DNA of 46,021 bases from assembly GCA_018262705.1 (NCBI GenBank), contig JADFDQ010000014.1, positions 1 to 46,021 of the forward strand, read 5' to 3'. The translations under genes were made by a program, and so were the position numbers. Origin of the DNA: Xanthomonas sp. (GTDB taxonomy: Bacteria > Pseudomonadota > Gammaproteobacteria > Xanthomonadales > Xanthomonadaceae). The notes beneath the pieces were generated by a model. It ran no database searches. It was not told where the DNA came from and saw only the letters and a program-made list of their open reading frames with translations. Below, piece after piece: positions 3,631-44,941 of this stretch (position 1 is its first letter; each line of letters opens with the position of its first letter).

Positions 3631-3766
3631 GATGCGGAAAGCAAAACGCCCGCAACCGGGATGCTTTGAAGATGGGGCGAGCGCGGGCGGTTTCAAGGGC
3701 GGGCCGGCAAATCGGCAGCGCAACGCGCCCTGCCGCTTGCCGCTCGCCTTGCCGCCGCCCGGCGAT

Positions 3767-3778
3767 TACCCTGCCCGG
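3767..3778 (+). promoter_or_regulatory. -10-like TACCCT six bases before the cutA ATG
   Basis: TACCCT at 3767-3772, then six bases, then ATG 3779. It has the same geometry as at dsbD, pssA and queD in this window. No Shine-Dalgarno sequence is visible. Confidence 0.4.
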
Positions 3779-4096
3779 ATGGACCTGCTGCTGTGCCTGA
3801 CCACCTGCCCCGACGCCACCAGCGCCCGGCGCATCGCCGCCGCGCTGGTCGAAGAGCGGCTGGCCGCCTGCGTCAACGTGATCCCCGGCCTGCACTCGAC
3901 CTATCGCTGGCAGGGAGCGGTCGAGCGCGCCGACGAATTGCTGCTGCTGATCAAGACCACCCGCGCCGCCTTTCCGGCGCTGCAGGCGCGGCTGCCGGCC
4001 CTGCACCCTTACGAACTTCCCGAGCTGGTCGCGGTCGAACCGGCAAATGCGCTGCCCGCCTACCTGCAGTGGGTCGAAGGCGCGGTGCGGACGTAA
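3779..4096 (+). CDS. cutA: CutA divalent-cation tolerance protein
   Basis: The product has 105 residues, the normal CutA1 length. Family marks are the CTTCPD start (near residue 6), RIAAALVEERLAACVNVIPG, the YRWQGAVERADELLLLIKTT block, and HPYELPELVAV. CutA forms a ferredoxin-like trimer in the cytoplasm and has been linked to copper tolerance, although its molecular role is unsettled. The ATG at 3779 is preferred over longer frames because it gives the family N-terminus. It is nine bases upstream of dsbD. In several bacteria cutA and dsbD are neighbours, which fits a shared connection to copper and thiol chemistry. Confidence 0.93.
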   Translation: MDLLLCLTTCPDATSARRIAAALVEERLAACVNVIPGLHSTYRWQGAVERADELLLLIKTTRAAFPALQARLPALHPYELPELVAVEPANALPAYLQWVEGAVRT

Positions 4097-4105
4097 AATG
4101 ACAGG
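4094..4105 (+). promoter_or_regulatory. -10-like TAAAAT six bases before the dsbD ATG
   Basis: TAAAAT at 4094-4099 overlaps the end of cutA (its TAA stop). Six bases later comes ATG 4106. This predicts a leaderless dsbD transcript in addition to any read-through from cutA. Confidence 0.45.
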
Positions 4106-6466
4106 ATGACCGGTTTGCTTTCCCATCTGCGCCGCTGGCTGGCCGCAGCGCTTCTGTTCGCTGCGGTGTTGCCGACGGCCGCGCAGGATGTCGAATTGCC
4201 GCCGGTCGATCAGGTGTTCGTGCTGTCGGCGCAGGCCACCGCGCGCGACCGCATCGAGGTGCGCTGGAAGATCGCCGATGGGTTCTACCTCTACCGTCAC
4301 CGCACCTCGGTCAAGCCCGCGGCGAATTTCGTCGGGGCCCAGCTGGCGCTGCCGGAAGGCGAAAAGCACCACGACCAGTTCTTCGGCGACGTCCAGACCT
4401 ACCGCCAGCGGCTGATCGGGGTTCTGACCGGAACGCCCGCCGCGGGCGCGAGCGGTGTCACGCTGACCGTGAAATACCAAGGCTGTGCCGATGCCGGGGT
4501 GTGCTATCCGCCGCAGACCCGCACCCTGACCGTGCCGCTGCCGCCCGAACCGAGCGCGGCCGGGGTTGGCTTCGGCCGCGGCGTGGGCGGCAATCCGTTC
4601 GCGACACTGGGCGCTGCCGGCGCCGCGCAGGACGGTCCGCTGCCGCCCGAGCAGGCCTTCACCAGCGAGGCCATCGCGCTCGACGGCAGCACCCTGCTGC
4701 TGCGGTTGACCCCGGCACGCGGCTACTACCTCTATCGCGACAAACTCTCGGCGCGGCTCGACGCCGGAGCCGGCCTGTCGGCCCGCTTGCCGCCGGCCGC
4801 GCACCTGCCCAAGGCCACGCCCTACCACGACGAGCACTTCGGCAAAGTCGCGGTGTACTTCGATCAGGTCGAAATCCGCCTGCCGGTCGCCCGCGCCACC
4901 CCGCGCGCGGCCAGCGGCACACTGACGGTCGGGCTGCAGGGCTGCCAGGACAACGGCATCTGCTACCCGCCGATGACCCGCACGCTGGCGGTGGCGCTGC
5001 CGGCCGGAGCAGTCGGCGGTGGCGGTGGCGGCGGAAGTGCGACTGTGCAGAACGCCGCGCTTCCCGCAGCGACGCCGGCGCCGGCAAGAACGTCGGAGGT
5101 TGCCCGCCCGCCCGCGCCGGCGGGGGCGGCCCCTGCGACGGCGTTGCTGGCCGCGGCGCCTGCGGATGAACCGGCGCCCGAGGTATTCGCCACTTCCGAA
5201 GCCTCCCCGCAGGCCCTGCCCGAGCGCACCGCACCACCGCAGCGCGCGGTGCCGAGCCTGGCGCTGGCGCTGCTGCTGGCGCTGGCCGGCGGGCTGATCC
5301 TGAACCTGATGCCCTGCGTGCTGCCGGTGCTTTCACTCAAAGCGCTGGCCGTGGCACAAAGTGGCGAGAACGCGGCGCAGGCGCGCCGCCACGCGCTGGC
5401 CTATACGGCAGGCGTGCTGCTTTCGATGCTGGCGTTGGGCGCGCTGGCATTGGCGCTGCGCAAAGCCGGGCTGGCGCTGGGCTGGGGCTTCCAGTTGCAG
5501 CAGCCGCTGGTATTGGCGCTGCTGGCGCTGGTGATGTTCGCGCTCGGGCTGAACCTGTCCGGGCTGTGGCAGGCCAATGTGACGCTGGGCGGCCGCAGCG
5601 CGGCGCTGACCGCGCGCAGCGGCGCCGGCGGCGATTTTTTCACCGGCGTGCTGGCGGTGGTGCTGGCCACGCCCTGCACCGCGCCCTACATGGGCGCGGC
5701 GTTGGCCTATGCCTTCCTTGGCCCGACCGCCGGCGCGCTGCTGGTGTTCCTTGCGCTGGGATTGGGGTTGGCACTGCCGTTCCTGCTGATCGGTTTCGTT
5801 CCGGCACTGGCGCGGCGGCTGCCCAAACCCGGCGCGTGGATGGAAACGCTGAAACAATTGCTGGCGTTCCCGCTGTACGCCACCGCCGCATGGCTGGTGT
5901 GGGTGCTGGCGAAACTGCGCGGCGCCGACGCGGTCGGACTGTGGCTGATCGCCGCGATCGGGCTGGCGCTGGCGGCGTGGGCCTGGACCCGCGCTCGTAG
6001 CGGCGGTGCGCGGGCGTGGCAGCCGCTGGCGGCACTGGTGCTGCTGGCGCTGATCTGGCCGCTGGCGCGGCTACAAGCGCTGCCGCGTCCGCAGGCTACA
6101 CAGCCGGCGCAGGCCGATCAAACTTGGCTGGCGTGGTCGCCGCAGGCGCTGGCCGACCTGCGCGCGCAGGGCCGCCCGGTGTTCGTCAACATGACCGCCG
6201 ACTGGTGCGTGACCTGCAAGGCCAACGAGCAGGCGGTGTTCGCCCGCGATGGGTTCCGCAACGCGCTGCGCGACGCCAACGCGGTGTATATGGTTGGCGA
6301 TTACACCGACGTCGATCCGGAGATCACCGCCTTCCTGCAGGCGCACCGCGCCGTGGGCGTGCCGCTGTATGTGGTCTATCCGCGCGGCGGCGGCGAGGGC
6401 GAAATCCTGCCGACCCTGCTCACGCCTGCCACCGCACTGGCCGCGCTGGCGCGGGCTGCACGCTGA
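4106..6466 (+). CDS. dsbD: Thiol:disulfide interchange protein DsbD with two N-terminal alpha domains
   Basis: The product has 786 residues. DsbD carries electrons from cytoplasmic thioredoxin across the inner membrane to periplasmic disulfide isomerases and cytochrome c maturation. A signal peptide spans about 1-26 (ALLFAAVLPTAAQ). Two consecutive DsbD-alpha domains follow: residues 28-146 with C127/C133 (QGCADAGVCYPP) and 180-298 with C280/C286 (QGCQDNGICYPP). Next come a Gly/Ala/Pro linker and an eight-helix core with C404 (LMPCVLP) and C524 (ATPCTAPYMG). The C-terminal thioredoxin domain has C701-x-x-C704 (DWCVTCK). E. coli DsbD has one alpha domain and about 565 residues, so the duplication explains the extra length. 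The stop overlaps the start of the next thioredoxin-like gene. Confidence 0.95.
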   Translation: MTGLLSHLRRWLAAALLFAAVLPTAAQDVELPPVDQVFVLSAQATARDRIEVRWKIADGFYLYRHRTSVKPAANFVGAQLALPEGEKHHDQFFGDVQTYRQRLIGVLTGTPAAGASGVTLTVKYQGCADAGVCYPPQTRTLTVPLPPEPSAAGVGFGRGVGGNPFATLGAAGAAQDGPLPPEQAFTSEAIALDGSTLLLRLTPARGYYLYRDKLSARLDAGAGLSARLPPAAHLPKATPYHDEHFGKVAVYFDQVEIRLPVARATPRAASGTLTVGLQGCQDNGICYPPMTRTLAVALPAGAVGGGGGGGSATVQNAALPAATPAPARTSEVARPPAPAGAAPATALLAAAPADEPAPEVFATSEASPQALPERTAPPQRAVPSLALALLLALAGGLILNLMPCVLPVLSLKALAVAQSGENAAQARRHALAYTAGVLLSMLALGALALALRKAGLALGWGFQLQQPLVLALLALVMFALGLNLSGLWQANVTLGGRSAALTARSGAGGDFFTGVLAVVLATPCTAPYMGAALAYAFLGPTAGALLVFLALGLGLALPFLLIGFVPALARRLPKPGAWMETLKQLLAFPLYATAAWLVWVLAKLRGADAVGLWLIAAIGLALAAWAWTRARSGGARAWQPLAALVLLALIWPLARLQALPRPQATQPAQADQTWLAWSPQALADLRAQGRPVFVNMTADWCVTCKANEQAVFARDGFRNALRDANAVYMVGDYTDVDPEITAFLQAHRAVGVPLYVVYPRGGGEGEILPTLLTPATALAALARAAR

Positions 6467-7071
6467 TGCCGTCGAACCGTCGCGTGCTGCTGGTGGCCGG
6501 GCTTGCCGCCATCGCCGGCGCGGTTTCCAGCCTGTTTTTCGAACCCACCCTCGCCTACAGGTGGGCCGGCACCGAAGTCGGGCAGGAGGCGCTGCAGGCC
6601 ACGCTGGAAGCGCGGGCACCGGCGCCACCGCCGGGCGTGATCGTGGCGCGTCGCGGCGAAGCGCTGCCCGCGCTGGAATTGCCGGATCTGGATGGCGCGA
6701 ACGTCCGGCTTCCCGGCTCCTGGGCCGGCCGCCCGACGCTGGTCAACCTGTGGGCCACCTGGTGCGCACCGTGCCTGAAGGAAATGCCGGATCTGCAGGC
6801 ATTTTCGGCGAAACAGGGCGCAAACGGGGTGCGCGTGGTCGGCATCGCGCTGGACGAACCGGACGCGGTGCGCGGCTTTCTCGCCGCCCACGGCATCACC
6901 TATCCAATCCTGATCGACGCCCCGGGACCGGCCGACGCCGGCGTCCGGCTGGGCAACCGCGCCGGCGTGCTGCCCTATTCGGTGCTGGTCGGCGCCGACG
7001 GACGCCTGCTCAAGACCCGGATCGGCCCGTTCGACAACATGGATGCGATCGCACGCTGGGCCTCGCCCTGA
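6466..7071 (+). CDS. TlpA-like periplasmic thioredoxin, membrane-anchored
   Basis: The product has 201 residues. An N-terminal hydrophobic segment (about 7-25) acts as signal or anchor. It is followed by a TlpA/ResA-type redoxin domain with the WATWCAPC active site (C100, C103) and a cis-Pro segment (GVLPYSVLVGADG). It is a likely periplasmic thiol reductase. Its ATG overlaps the dsbD TGA (TGATG), so translation is coupled and DsbD is the natural electron donor. This start also removes the shadow extension into dsbD. The exact client (cytochrome c apoproteins, isomerases or a copper site) cannot be told. Confidence 0.9.
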   Translation: MPSNRRVLLVAGLAAIAGAVSSLFFEPTLAYRWAGTEVGQEALQATLEARAPAPPPGVIVARRGEALPALELPDLDGANVRLPGSWAGRPTLVNLWATWCAPCLKEMPDLQAFSAKQGANGVRVVGIALDEPDAVRGFLAAHGITYPILIDAPGPADAGVRLGNRAGVLPYSVLVGADGRLLKTRIGPFDNMDAIARWASP

Positions 7072-7223
7072 GCCGCACCACGGCGGTTTAGAGCATTCGC
7101 TCGAACACGTCATTAAAAATCCGTTATCAGGCAAAACTTCGGCGATCTGGATCGGAAAACTGGACATCGACGCTGGTTCGCGGGACACTGCGCGCCGATT
7201 TCCTCAGGATTTGACGCCCGCCG

Positions 7224-16626: not shown

Positions 16627-19143
16627 CTATGCGGCAGCCTGCTGCCGCTGCGCGGCAGCGTCGCCAGCCAGCGGCAGGATCACCAGCGTCGTGTATTCCT
16701 GATAGCTTGCCTCCGGCAGCTCGGACAGGCGCAGGCGCTCCATGCGCGGCGCTTCGATCGGCAGCCGCGCCGCTTCGTAAAGAATCACTTCGTGGTCGGG
16801 CGGATACCAGCGCAGCAGCTTGTCCACCAGCGCCTGCAGTCCTTCGCGCGTCGCCTCGCGCCGGGTGCAGGTCAGATCGCCCGACAGCGCCACCTGCCAG
16901 AGCAACACCAATCCGGCCGAATCCAACTGCCGCTCCTGGCAGAGGAACGCCGTCGCCTCCAGCGACTGCACGCCTTGACGTCCGGGATCGATCCCGAGAT
17001 CGGCATACAGGCAGGCTTCGGCGGAAATGCCCGGCTCCATGCGCGCAGCAAATCCTTCCGCGCGCGCCTTGCGGATGACCCGGTGCGGCACGTCGGCAAA
17101 CACCCCGGGGTGTCCGTAAAACACGGCGCACACGCGCTTGTTCGAGCGCACTTGGGCCATGATTGCGGCGTCGATTTCGGCGTAGGTGAGGCGCCGATCC
17201 TTGCCGTCCGCGTAATGCTCGCCGAGGTTGATCGCATCCGGCCGCAGCTCGCGGATCATCGCCAGCGCGAACGGATCCACGAGGCACATCACCACCTCGG
17301 CCAGACGAATCTCCGACTCGCAGCGCTGGCTGATATGCCGCCCAAGCTGGATGCCGCAGCCGACGACGACCAACTCCCCGACACCGGATTCGGCCGCTTT
17401 CGATTCGCCCGCCAGCTCGACCCGATCGCGCCCTTTGCGCTTGGCTTCCAGCAGCGCCAGATCGGCGGCATTGACAAGGTCATCGAGGCTGCCTTGCATC
17501 TGGTTCGAATCGCAGATGCCGGCGCTGATGCTGAAGTCCACGACGGCGCCATTGACCGTCACCGGTTCAATCAGCTCACGCAGGGTCTGCGTCACCGCCG
17601 CTGCGCGGGCGGCATCGCCGCGCACCAACAGGGTGAACTCGTCGCCGCCGCTGCGGCCGGCGACGCCTTCGTCACCGATGGCGCGTTCGATCCGGACGCC
17701 CAATTCCCTCAACACCGCATCGCCGGCGGCATGTCCGAACCGGTCGTTGATCTGCTTGAACAGGTCAATATCCAGGATCACGGCACTGAGCACCCGGTTC
17801 TGTTCGCGCGCCGCCGCCAATTCCTCCCTGCCCACGCTGCGAATCTGCTTGCGGTTGAGCAGTCTGGTCAGGCCGTCATGTTCCGACTGCCAGCGATAGC
17901 GCTGGCGCTCGCGCGCGGTGCGTTTCTGCAGAATGAACAGCATGCCGGCCAGCAGCACCAGAATCAGCACGCCGAATGCAAGCAGCCACTGCTTCCGCCG
18001 CGCTGCGGTGATTTCCAGACGGGACACATCCTGTTTCGCCTGCAGCAGCTCGATTTGCTGCTGCTTGAAGTGGGTGTCGAACTGCACCTGTTGATAGGCG
18101 ATCAGCCGGTTGCGTTCGGCTTCCTGATTTTTCGCTGCCGCCGCCATCGCATGATTCAGGTGCGCCAGCGCCCGCTGCGGATCGCCCTGACGATCGGCCA
18201 GCGCCGCCAGCTGACGCTCCGATTCTTCCAGCGGCTGCGATGACCCTACCGACCGGAAATAGTCCGCGCTCGATTCCAGCAGCGTGCGCGCCTGTTCCAG
18301 ATCGGAGCCGGTGGCAATCAGGCTCGCCGCGATCCCGTTCTCGGTGTCATGAACGCCCGGCAGATAGCCGATCCCGCGAAACCGCGCCAACGCCTTGCGA
18401 TACCAGCGCAGCGCTTCTGCGGGTTTGCCCAGCTCCGCGTCCACTTTGCCCAGCCCGACTTCTCCGGCACCGATGAACAGCACGTCTCCGGCGCGGCCGC
18501 AAACCTCGATCTGACGCCTTCGCCAGGTCCCCGCCTCGGCAAACTGCCGCGCCAACTCTTCGACCGATGCCATCCCGGCTACAGCGCGGCATTGCGCCAT
18601 GAGGTCCGTGCCCTGCTCCGCCTGCTGCACCGCACGCATTCCGAACTCGCGCGCTTTCTCATCCTCCCCAATCAACGAATACAGATAGCTGGCAATACTC
18701 AGCAGACGCGGCGCTTCCTCGGGCGCCGCCGGCAGGTACCGCAAGCTCTGGCCCAGCCAGGTGAAAGCCAGCGTCCAGTCCTCGACGTTGCTGGCAATGC
18801 TGATCGCGGTCGAATACACCTTGACCCGTAGCGGTGCCGGCATGCGCTGCCGCAGCAAGGCGCGCAGCCCGGCGAGCGCGTCTTTCTGGTTTCCAGCGAT
18901 CGCGAGATTGCGCAGACGCACGTACTCGATCCGTTGCCGCTGCTCTGGCGTCAATGCATCCGGTCGCGCGGTCAGGGCCGCGATCTTCGCATTCGTCTCC
19001 GCGACCGGCGCGGTGTTTGCGAGCCGTTCGATTTCCTGGACTTGCGACTCCGGATCATCGTTCGCCAGCGCCGGCGCGCAGGCCAGCAGCAGCGCAAGCG
19101 TCGCGGCTTGGAATAACGCTGAACCCAGGCGCCAAGGAAGCAT
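16627..19143 (-). CDS. TPR sensor - GGDEF diguanylate cyclase - borosin-type peptide N-methyltransferase fusion
   Basis: The product is 838 residues in one uninterrupted frame. A signal peptide spans 1-27. A helical TPR-like region spans about 30-340 and is presumably periplasmic. A coiled coil spans about 340-383 and one transmembrane helix 386-405. The GGDEF domain (about 415-577) has metal-binding D458, SGGDEF at 498-503, SISAGI at 538-543 and no RxxD inhibitory site, so it looks catalytically competent. Residues 588-828 form a tetrapyrrole-methylase-fold SAM enzyme of the borosin class. VVVGCGIQLG opens it, then INLGEHY (Y644), R650/R651 and Y654, FYGHPGVF (676-682), MEPGISAEACLYADLGIDPG (702-721) and DHEVILYEA. 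This is very like the split-borosin enzyme SonM of Shewanella, in which the tyrosines and arginine of this region are catalytic. It probably methylates backbone amides of the peptide encoded 12 bases upstream. The fusion to a cyclase is the oddity. Confidence 0.88.
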   Translation of the reverse strand: MLPWRLGSALFQAATLALLLACAPALANDDPESQVQEIERLANTAPVAETNAKIAALTARPDALTPEQRQRIEYVRLRNLAIAGNQKDALAGLRALLRQRMPAPLRVKVYSTAISIASNVEDWTLAFTWLGQSLRYLPAAPEEAPRLLSIASYLYSLIGEDEKAREFGMRAVQQAEQGTDLMAQCRAVAGMASVEELARQFAEAGTWRRRQIEVCGRAGDVLFIGAGEVGLGKVDAELGKPAEALRWYRKALARFRGIGYLPGVHDTENGIAASLIATGSDLEQARTLLESSADYFRSVGSSQPLEESERQLAALADRQGDPQRALAHLNHAMAAAAKNQEAERNRLIAYQQVQFDTHFKQQQIELLQAKQDVSRLEITAARRKQWLLAFGVLILVLLAGMLFILQKRTARERQRYRWQSEHDGLTRLLNRKQIRSVGREELAAAREQNRVLSAVILDIDLFKQINDRFGHAAGDAVLRELGVRIERAIGDEGVAGRSGGDEFTLLVRGDAARAAAVTQTLRELIEPVTVNGAVVDFSISAGICDSNQMQGSLDDLVNAADLALLEAKRKGRDRVELAGESKAAESGVGELVVVGCGIQLGRHISQRCESEIRLAEVVMCLVDPFALAMIRELRPDAINLGEHYADGKDRRLTYAEIDAAIMAQVRSNKRVCAVFYGHPGVFADVPHRVIRKARAEGFAARMEPGISAEACLYADLGIDPGRQGVQSLEATAFLCQERQLDSAGLVLLWQVALSGDLTCTRREATREGLQALVDKLLRWYPPDHEVILYEAARLPIEAPRMERLRLSELPEASYQEYTTLVILPLAGDAAAQRQQAAA

Positions 19144-19155
19144 GACCCCGACCGT

Positions 19156-19377
19156 TTAGTCGTCGTAAGCGGTGATGGTCACCTGGATGGCTGCAAATTG
19201 CCCGTCGGCCAAGCCGGTGAGCCGCTTTATGGCCTCGAAGTCCATCTCGAGCATGGCCTTGCGTTCTTCATCAGACAGCCCGGCATGGCGCATGACGCCT
19301 TCGGGATCGCGCTCGTATTCGGCCGCCAAGGCCGCATTGCGCCCCAACTCGCGCATCAGTTTCAACAGTTTCGACAT
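19156..19377 (-). CDS. Borosin precursor peptide (split type, SonA-like), 73 aa
   Basis: The product has 73 residues. Residues 1-55 form a compact helical domain (MSKLLKLMRELGRNAALAAE, then Y--DPEGVMRHAGLSDEE). This resembles the LigA-like borosin-binding domain of split borosin precursors. The C-terminal tail 56-73 (LADGQFAAIQVTITAYDD) is hydrophobic, beta-branched and unlike the helical part, as expected of a core peptide. I64, V66 and I68 alternate and are candidate alpha-N-methylation sites. A GGGGGG-rich ribosome site lies just before the ATG. The stop is 12 bases before the methyltransferase fusion, so the two are co-expressed. No dioxygenase partner is present, which argues against an ordinary LigA subunit. 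Final processing and the product are unknown. Confidence 0.82.
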   Translation of the reverse strand: MSKLLKLMRELGRNAALAAEYERDPEGVMRHAGLSDEERKAMLEMDFEAIKRLTGLADGQFAAIQVTITAYDD

Positions 19378-27754: not shown

Positions 27755-27955
27755 TTTCGGGGTATCGCACCCACGACGCCCTCACGTCAAGCCTCGCCGG
27801 CTTGATCTCATGACGCACCCCGCAAAAATGGGGCCCAATCCTCGCCGTTTTGAGTCAGAATCAGGAAAGGGTGGGTTTGGCCGATCCGCCAAGTGCCGTT
27901 TGCCGCAACTTGCCCTCAGGTTGCAGCACGCCGCCGGAACCGGGAGACAGGGAAG

Positions 27956-29677
27956 ATGAACGAAGTACCCAGCGCACAAGCCAGCGGCAATCCCGCACAG
28001 GCCCCTGCGGACGGAGCCGAACGCTATCGGGTGCTGATCGTCGAGGACGACCGCAGTCAGGCGCTGTTCGCCGAAGCCATTCTTCGCGGCGCCGGCATGG
28101 AGGCCGAAGTGGTCGCCGTTCCCGAGCAGATGATGGCGACGCTGGAGCGCTTCGAACCGGATCTGGTGCTGATGGATCTGCACATGCCCGGCGTCAGCGG
28201 CACCTCGCTGACCGCGCAGATCCGCGAACACCCGCGTTTCAAATTCGTTCCCGTGGTGTTCCTGACCGGCGACCAGAATCCCGACAGCCAGCTGGATGCG
28301 CTGGAACACGGCGGCGACGAGTACATCGTCAAGCCGGTGCGCCCGCGCCATCTCGTGGTGTCGGTGCAAAGCCGCATCCGCCGCGTCCGCGCAATGAACC
28401 GCAGCATGCAGGCAGCCGTCGAGCCGGTGCGGCATCCGGTCACCGGACTGTACACGCGCCCCGCGCTGATGAAACTCCTGCTCGAACAGGCGACGTCAGG
28501 CATTTCCGGCGGCGCGCTGCTGATCGAAATGGGCAACGCCACCGCGATGCACGACCGCTACGGCTTTGCGGAATTCGAGGAACTGATCAACGCCGCCGGG
28601 CGCACGCTGCAGGAACTGACCAAGAGCGAAGCGGCCGCCAGGTTGAGCGACAACATGTTCCTCGCCGTGGCCGGCGGTCACGACGTCGGCTGGCTGGAAG
28701 AATACGCGCGCCGCCTGCGCGACGGCATCGGCTTTACCGATTTCAAGATCGAAAGCGAAACCTTGCGCCTGCGCTGCACCGTCGGCTACACCACGTTCGA
28801 ACACGGCTTCACGGACACCGGCGAGATCCTGGCAGCGGTGGAGGACGCCGCGCGCGAAGCCCACGGCTCGCCGATCGGCATCGCGCGCTATGTGCCGCCC
28901 GATCGCATCGCCGACACTGAAATCGCCGACGAGCTCCGCGCCGCCCTGTCCGAATCCGGCGATGCGCTCTACCTCGCGTTCCAGCCGGTGGTTGCGGTGG
29001 CCGGCGGCGACGAAGCGCGCTATCAGGTGCTGGTGCGGTTGCGCGGCGCCGATGGCAGCGTGCGCCGGGCAGCGGAATTCCTCGACACCGCGCAGGCCAC
29101 CGGACAGCTGGCGGCGCTCGATCGCTGGGTCATGCGGCACGCGCTGGATCTACTGCGCGACCGCCGCCGCGCCTCGCGACCGATCCGGCTGATCGTCTCG
29201 CAATCGCCGCGCACGCTGACACAGGACGACTACGTCAGCTGGCTGCAGCAGGCCGTCGAGAGCGCGGAGGTCGATGGCGAGTCGCTGATCATCGACCTGC
29301 GGCTGGAAGACGCGCTGGTGCATTCGGTCCTGCTGCGCGAATTCTGTCGGCAGATGGTGCCGGTTGGCGTGCAGTTTTCCTTGAGCCAGTATCGGCACAC
29401 GGCCGATGCCGCCCAGCTGATCGATCTGCTGCCGCTCGGCTATCTGCGGCTGGCTTCCGACTTCGCGCAACTGCCGCTGGCGCAGGGCCTGCACGACGAG
29501 ATGCGCGAAGCCATCCAGTACGCCCACCGCAACGGGCTGCAGGTGATCGCGCAGGGCGTGGAAGACCCGCAGGCCGCCGCCGCGCTGTGGATCGGCGGAA
29601 TCGATTTCATCCAGGGCAATCTGGTGCATCGGCCCGAACAATCCCTCGATTACGACTTCCGGAGCGCAACGCTGTGA
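27956..29677 (+). CDS. Response regulator with degenerate GGDEF and EAL domains
   Basis: The product has 573 residues. The REC domain (about 25-140) has D31/D32, phospho-acceptor D74 (VLMDLHMPG) and K126. The GGDEF-like domain (about 155-312) has SDNMF at the active-site motif, so it cannot make c-di-GMP. The EAL-like domain (320-573) reads YQVLVRL where YEALxR is expected, so it is unlikely to cleave it. The overall pattern suggests a c-di-GMP receptor or output protein controlled by phosphorylation, in the manner of FimX-like proteins. It overlaps the following kinase gene (GTGA), its probable partner. The ATG at 27956 is chosen to start just before the REC domain. The 201 bases upstream (27755-27955) are divergent promoter space. 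Confidence 0.88.
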
Positions 29678-43839: not shown

Positions 43840-44847
43840 TCAGGCATCCAGCGGACTGCGCACGCCGTTGCCGCCGCGATTGAGCACATGGGTGTAGATC
43901 TGCGTGGTCGCCACATCCTTGTGGCCGAGCAGTTCCTGAATGGTACGGATGTCATAACCGGCCTCCAACAAGTGCGTCGCAAACGAATGCCGCAGCGTGT
44001 GCGCGCTCAGCAACTTGACGATGCCGGCCTGTTCGCGCGCCCGCTTGAGCGCACGCGAGAGCACCGAGTCATCGACATGATGCCGATGCTCCTTGCCCGT
44101 CCGCGGATCGATGGATCGGTTTTCCGACGGGAATACGAACTGCCAGCCGAAATCCTTGCCCGCGTTCGGATACTTGCGCTCCAGCGCATGCGGAAGCGGC
44201 GTTTCGCCAAACCCCTCAGCAAGATCCTTCTCATGCAACACGCGGGCGCGCTCGACCTCGCGACGCAATGGCTCCTCCAACGCCCGTGGCAGCATCGTCC
44301 GGCGATCTTTCCCGCCCTTGCCGTTGCGGATCGTGATCTCGCTGCGCGCAAAATCCACGTCCTTCACCCGCAGCCGCATGCTCTCCATCAGCCGCATCCC
44401 GGTGCCATACAGCAAACTGGCCATGACCCACGGACGCCCGGCCAGCATCGACAGCAACCGCCTGACCTCCGCGACCGAAAGCACCGTCGGCAACCGCTGC
44501 GGCCGCTTGGCGCGCAGCACCGACTCCATCCACGGCAAATCGACCTGCAGCACCTCGCGATACAGGAACAGCAGCGCCGACAGCGCCTGATTTTGCGTAC
44601 TCGCCGCCACCCGATCCTCAATGGCCAAACGACTCAAAAAGGCCTCAACCTCGACGCCACCCAAGCCCCGAGGATGTTTCTTGCCATTGGCCAAGATGAA
44701 CCGACGAATCCACGCCAAATAGGCCTGCTCTGTGCGGATACTGTAGCGTTTAGCACGCAACTTGCGGCGAACGACATGCAACAGGCTGGCTTTCTGCCCA
44801 GCCCCCGCTGTCGTCGATACGCCCTCTTGATCGCCGGCATATCTCAT
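43840..44847 (-). CDS. intI: Integron integrase (tyrosine recombinase IntI)
   Basis: The product is 335 residues from ATG 44847, or 337 from GTG 44853. Tyrosine recombinase with, in 337-residue numbering, R154 ([12 protein letters not shown]), K179, H285-x-x-R288 ([12 protein letters not shown]), H311 ([10 protein letters not shown]) and Y320. The integron-specific extra segment is present at about 222-243 ([18 protein letters not shown]). That insert separates IntI from ordinary XerC/D enzymes and binds the bulged bases of attC. It is transcribed away from the cassette array, the standard integron layout. The gene appears intact. Confidence 0.95.
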
Positions 44848-44941
44848 ACCCACCCCAACTCGAACCGATATCTGGCGACTTTAGGGAAGCTGCATTCGAC
44901 ATCCAATCAGCTAACAGCTTGATTCGAGGTAGGAAAACGCC

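Follow-up and report, generated by a model that had tools for sequence, protein, structure and literature searches.

The 46,021-nucleotide stretch of DNA analysed here (the window; contig JADFDQ010000014.1, positions 1 to 46,021, of the Xanthomonas sp. assembly GCA_018262705.1) harbours on its minus strand what is, judged by sequence, a split-borosin locus composed of two genes. The upstream gene encodes a SonA-like borosin precursor peptide of 73 amino acids (19156..19377) and is separated by a gap of 12 bases from a frame with an ATG start (16627..19143) whose 838-amino-acid product joins a predicted tetratricopeptide repeat (TPR) sensor, a transmembrane (TM) helix, a predicted GGDEF cyclase domain and a methyltransferase-type domain. 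The protein begins with a predicted signal peptide (residues 1-28, 19060..19143) recognised by hydropathy and an ALA-N site picked out by eye, followed by a predicted periplasmic TPR superhelix (residues 31-345, 18109..19053; Pfam TPR_12, 8.6e-14), a predicted TM helix (residues 386-408, 17920..17988) in which hydropathy rises up to 3.06 and which is followed by basic residues, a GGDEF domain (residues 421-574, 17422..17883; 8.4e-34) with its motif at 17635-17649, and a borosin alpha-N-methyltransferase domain (approximately residues 590-826, 16666..17376) which Pfam labels TP_methylase (residues 591-792, 3.9e-16). The initial annotation had described this 838-residue frame with its signal peptide, TPR region, TM helix, intact GGDEF domain and C-terminal methyltransferase, as well as a SonA-like 73-residue gene 12 bases upstream; all of these were found at the coordinates claimed, and the borosin motifs it quoted (YGHPGVF among them) are present letter for letter.

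Searched against PDB sequences, the C-terminal domain matches SonM first (E 5.2e-67) and then the fungal OphMA family (2e-41 to 2e-30), and on this sequence evidence it is a borosin-type methyltransferase, as had been proposed. SonM from Shewanella oneidensis is a type IV enzyme for which passages of PMC8429565 name seven functional residues, and it acts as a homodimer according to a passage of PMC11285071. Five of the seven (Y58, R67, Y71, Y93 and F99) correspond to Y644, R650, Y654, Y676 and F682 in a single stretch of the window (17098..17214), and W166 corresponds to W749. Y58, R67, Y71, Y93 and W166 are retained in at least 144 of 145 aligned methyltransferase rows, whereas SonM Q178 is replaced in the window by R761, arginine being the commonest residue at that position (88/145 rows). 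The domain also differs in its setting, since it forms the C-terminus of a predicted membrane TPR-GGDEF protein and is thus not the free-standing enzyme that a type IV split borosin, taken strictly on the SonM model, would have. The Pfam label, together with a sub-threshold LigA match on the peptide, might suggest that the domain is instead a methylase of the cobalamin, siroheme or YabN type and the small frame a chance LigA-like protein. Among curated families YabN is the only entry listed for the 838-residue protein, at 1.3e-6, and its 27.7 bits fall well short of the cut-off of 525. This is far weaker than the match to SonM with its borosin active site, and the explanation is refuted by the sequence and hardly credible; a grouping with cobalamin-type methylases, which the initial annotation had named as refuting its proposal, was not seen.

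The 73-residue peptide finds SonA-type chains as its best matches among PDB sequences (seven chains, E 2.4e-8 to 7.9e-8) in a gapless alignment over residues 2-62. Its leader, the borosin-binding domain (BBD), spans approximately residues 1-55 (19213..19377) by the limits described in a passage of PMC8429565, and a linker and putative core occupy approximately residues 57-73 (ADGQFAAIQVTITAYDD; 19159..19209). The adjoining SonA-type peptide resembles that of the SonM/SonA system, although its SonA match ends before most of the core. When it is aligned with 40 related peptides, similar C-termini are seen in the fused loci and in most loci where the order is peptide, cyclase, methyltransferase, reading roughly T/S-N-x-T/I/V-I/V-x-A-Y/H-D/E, with AIQVTITAYDD in the window and deviations in L045, L084, L115 and L135. 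Taken with the SonM-type domain next to it, the peptide is likely to be backbone-N-methylated by the fused methyltransferase.

Hydropathy of the 838-residue protein peaks at residues 6-28 and 384-410, which fits a signal peptide and one TM helix as judged from a Kyte-Doolittle scan rather than a trained predictor. With one hydrophobic stretch at the N-terminus and another inside the chain, the TPR part is predicted to lie in the periplasm and both the GGDEF and methyltransferase domains in the cytoplasm. The AlphaFold2 model of residues 1-410 has a mean pLDDT of 92.9, and its sensor fold appears to resemble peptide-binding TPR proteins including Rap and NprR, at approximately 11% identity and as a generic fold; the full-length model reaches a pTM of 0.48 and its domain arrangement was therefore left unused. 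Two sensor cysteines, Cys185 (18589..18591) and Cys215 (18499..18501), form a pair whose significance is that of conservation, in 38/38 and 50/54 rows. The SGGDEF motif of the cyclase is intact and D458, N466 and D467 are invariant across 54 rows (53 cyclases less than 60% alike and the window). GG[DE]EF is present in 129/129 GGDEF domains taken from the loci described below, a count in which intact motifs are favoured because the partner cyclases were found using the window's own GGDEF domain. The inhibitory RxxD site is missing at its usual spacing in the window and present in 49 of these 129 domains.

The association of peptide, cyclase and methyltransferase extends far beyond the window. 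Genomes positive for the methyltransferase make up 95 of 200 in an order-level sample and 9 of 369 in a class sample, and together with earlier relatives and a genome-contig scan these yielded 144 loci, of which all but L158-L164 form the order set (n=137, by the analyst's own order label). Left out were L001-L020, which are short stretches mostly re-read at greater length, and two fragmentary matches in G571; L196 is a later addition. Within the order set 16 loci are fused, 103 have a GGDEF gene on the same strand within 1.5 kb (102 scored by script, and L084, scored 'opposite' owing to a nearer overlapping frame and counted as adjacent), nine have one within 2.2 kb and nine have none, six of the latter lying at contig ends. 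The methyltransferase is thus fused to or no more than 2.2 kb from a same-strand GGDEF gene in 128/137 loci. The abundance of GGDEF genes was considered as the cause of this linkage and rejected, since a density of 774 in 99.5 Mb (25 genomes) gives an expectation of about 0.012 on the same strand within 1.5 kb, and around RsmI, another tetrapyrrole-methylase-type enzyme, just one of 30 of these genomes has a GGDEF gene within 1.5 kb, both strands being counted. Outside the order set one of seven loci has a GGDEF partner, and for the six borosin-type methyltransferases L159-L164 no GGDEF gene was found in the fetched stretch, which makes the link appear specific to one order.

The peptide is a regular member of these loci. 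An iterated profile seeded with the window peptide and applied to the same strand within 4.5 kb found a BBD-like frame in 135/144 loci, with E values of 1e-8 or lower for 153 of the 154 frames; none was found in L056, L066, L130, L157 and L160-L164. At 1e-2 the same profile matched 0/8619 opposite-strand frames, 1/7528 reversed frames (E 0.006) and 0/1476 frames from RsmI loci. With M for methyltransferase, P for peptide and D for GGDEF cyclase, the 144 loci are arranged as M-P-D in 74, P-D-M in 24 and P before the fusion in 16, the other 30 being different or incomplete. Many of the M-P-D peptides terminate in a hydrophobic stretch and an acidic tail. Distances between methyltransferases and between cyclases are correlated (Mantel r 0.83 over 126 rows, reached in 0/2000 permutations), in rows that share descent and tests that are not independent. 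Shared descent alone could produce such a correlation, and the borosin product and the cyclase might merely be co-transcribed in one order for regulation with no direct molecular link. The two main gene orders and the fusion, as well as the repeated pairs and sensor specificity set out below, speak against such companionship, which we consider improbable.

Several loci depart from these layouts. L149 and L151 have a 540-amino-acid frame with two tandem methyltransferase matches and a peptide upstream, and no GGDEF gene was found in their fetched stretches, that of L151 being shortened by its contig. L052, L147, L150 and L152-L156 form a separate clade (support 0.999) in which the peptide lies directly before the methyltransferase and the cyclase 1.5-1.8 kb upstream; in L156 this cyclase is 7TM-DISM-like by eye. 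The locus L027 is Luteimonas-like in a record labelled Sphingomonadales, perhaps a mislabelled metagenome bin.

The fusion itself is shared by many proteins. When a database was searched with the methyltransferase part for proteins 0.55-1.75 times as long as the window protein, 7997 candidates were scored and 324 of them matched at 1e-10. The 120 of these that are listed, including the window's own, all have both GGDEF and TP_methylase; the few named organisms among them include Luteimonas, Pseudoxanthomonas and Rubrivivax. With so many matches of comparable length, a chance frame was rejected for the 838-residue protein. In the genome collections the fused form occurs in Thermomonas, Luteimonas and other relatives, and in one Thermomonas bin (L022, ~3674-6774) the fused gene is frame-broken within the TPR part, which may be real or an assembly error. 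The 17 fused rows (16 loci, over-represented through the scan of close relatives, and the window) are monophyletic in a tree of the methyltransferases, with a support of 0.82, or 0.989 when L056 is added, a locus that stops at a contig edge. This clade is nested in a group of 40 rows (support 0.998), and 21 of the 23 others have a separate same-strand cyclase upstream of the methyltransferase. L032, L034, L035 and L045 contain a peptide gene, a TPR-TM-GGDEF gene of approximately 585 amino acids and a methyltransferase gene, separate and in that order. The nesting of the fused clade among P-D-M loci means that the fusion is best read as a single loss of the boundary between neighbouring genes.

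The initial annotation knew of no characterised system of this kind, and that nothing like it is known is not supported as it stands: 119 other listed database proteins share the fusion, and the legend to Figure 1 of Xu et al. 2024 (PMC11395268), which deals with borosin architectures and credits types V-X to Imani 2022 and Cho 2022, lists a GGDEF domain. On the wording of that legend the likeness consists in the combination of borosin and GGDEF, and the fusion is therefore not a new kind. What is new here is the wider pattern, the linkage of peptide, cyclase and methyltransferase across an order. Among the matches listed from the open-licence literature on borosins with c-di-GMP (cyclic di-GMP) or quorum sensing there is no paper on the function of this link.

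The TPR part alone, searched against 60 genomes (E <=1e-8), gave 20 matches corresponding to 19 genes in 16 genomes, one gene being frame-broken, and all of them fall in loci that contain a BBD-like peptide. Of the genomes with a borosin methyltransferase 16/22 gave a sensor match, against 0/38 of those without one. Because the window TPR part matches 59/103 of the close partner cyclases, relatives are undercounted here, and distant ones that lack a peptide may have gone undetected. One TPR-cyclase (L195 in genome G055, 5030-6925) has no methyltransferase in its 12-kb stretch, the genome's own being located approximately 87 kb away on the same contig, and directly upstream of it is a BBD-like peptide frame (6840-7145). 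Peptide-cyclase pairs are in addition repeated in eight loci, as M-P-D-P-D in L109, L119, L120, L132 and L136 and also in L103, L135 and L143. A sensor found only beside peptides, the L195 pair and the repeated pairs together suggest that the peptide acts on the cyclase, and these gene pairings point rather to such an action than to a receptor or c-di-GMP gating methylation.

Read in the direction of the initial annotation, which proposed that a membrane receptor couples c-di-GMP production to backbone N-methylation, the receptor and c-di-GMP would govern the production of an N-methylated natural product, with the TPR part sensing an outside cue. This would account for the fusion and the operon-like spacing and for the loci with several peptides and one cyclase, and periplasmic sensors are common on cyclases. 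On its own it leaves the repeated pairs and the peptide-only context of the sensor unexplained, and we regard it as rather unlikely. Nearly all sampled relatives in the order keep the peptide near a cyclase, which argues for the peptide being a signal and not only a natural product.

It is possible, although we would put it somewhat below an even chance, that the peptide serves as the cognate signal for a TPR receptor in the periplasm, through which c-di-GMP synthesis is controlled. The SonM-like domain would methylate the backbone of the SonA-like peptide, after which the C-terminal core would be cut off and would reach the periplasm via exporters and peptidases encoded elsewhere. The processed peptide would then bind the TPR superhelix and change the output of the cyclase, thereby setting c-di-GMP synthesis. 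Because GGDEF domains work as dimers and SonM is a homodimer, the fusion would hold the maker of the signal in the receptor complex. Several observations weigh against this proposal. Its weakest point is that, among the 22 largest clusters of neighbouring genes, no exporter was seen, and peptidases are limited to at most 7/144 loci. Twenty-three further loci with extra copies have no one-to-one pairs, nine of them having additional copies of just the peptide and 14 of just the cyclase, so that the pairing is strong but not strict. The M-P-P-D arrangement of L095, L100, L105, L107 and L113 is likewise unexplained by a strict one-to-one pairing.

The lack of an exporter in these clusters would be expected if the peptide stayed in the cell, where its binding and methylation at the methyltransferase dimer would alter the meeting of the neighbouring GGDEF domains. 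Cyclase activity would then be set from the cytoplasmic side by the peptide or its state of methylation, the TPR part sensing something else. The joining of methyltransferase and GGDEF on the predicted cytoplasmic side and the clade formed by the fused rows also fit an intracellular switch of this kind. The L195 pair with no adjoining methyltransferase, the unfused state of most sampled loci and the occurrence of the sensor beside peptide genes only, as far as the 60-genome search goes, are at odds with it, and we consider it unlikely, if worth keeping in mind.

If the peptide is indeed the signal of the TPR receptor, a broader proposal can tentatively be made, with more doubt than confidence: that these loci are a Gram-negative peptide-pheromone system in which a backbone-methylated ribosomal peptide acts as ligand for a periplasmic TPR receptor of its own, with c-di-GMP as the output. 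In several loci peptide-receptor pairs would multiply as units beside one methyltransferase, and the window family would have merged receptor and modifying enzyme. Rap and NprR, peptide-pheromone receptors of the RRNPP group, are soluble, work in the cytoplasm and bind peptides that carry no modification, whereas the window sensor, judged by the hydropathy of its predicted signal peptide and TM helix, should lie in the periplasm and act through a GGDEF domain. With membrane GGDEF cyclases that have periplasmic sensors the window protein shares the signal peptide, sensor, single TM helix and GGDEF domain, and it differs from them by the peptide-modifying enzyme domain fused behind GGDEF. The role of bacterial borosin peptides is, to our knowledge, largely open. 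A cassette of peptide and sensor-cyclase genes, paired repeatedly in some loci, directs attention to peptide-sensor binding and c-di-GMP; if the proposal holds, it would tie ribosomal peptide chemistry to second-messenger signalling and provide a function for a large borosin group, and as pheromones the borosins of this order would gain a signalling role.

Recurrent neighbours were sought by clustering the genes of the 144 loci and inspecting the 22 largest clusters; for the clusters named here Pfam was run on 160 residues of one example each. The largest cluster besides M, D and P is a GNAT acetyltransferase present in 32/144 loci, directly before the methyltransferase in 22, which may modify the peptide or product. 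An M14 zinc carboxypeptidase lies a few genes away in 7/144 loci (for example L113) and is a possible trimming enzyme; shewasin A is reported as a protease for a borosin peptide. An NfeD-like protein occurs in 5/144 loci, and a third cluster (4/144 loci) is peptidase-like by eye, with no Pfam match in the 160 residues of its one example. Elsewhere in the window, a response regulator (27893-29677) has an EAL domain and matches GGDEF below threshold, and the gene after it seems by eye to encode a hybrid histidine kinase. Near the window's end lies a tyrosine recombinase of the phage-integrase family (43840-44853).

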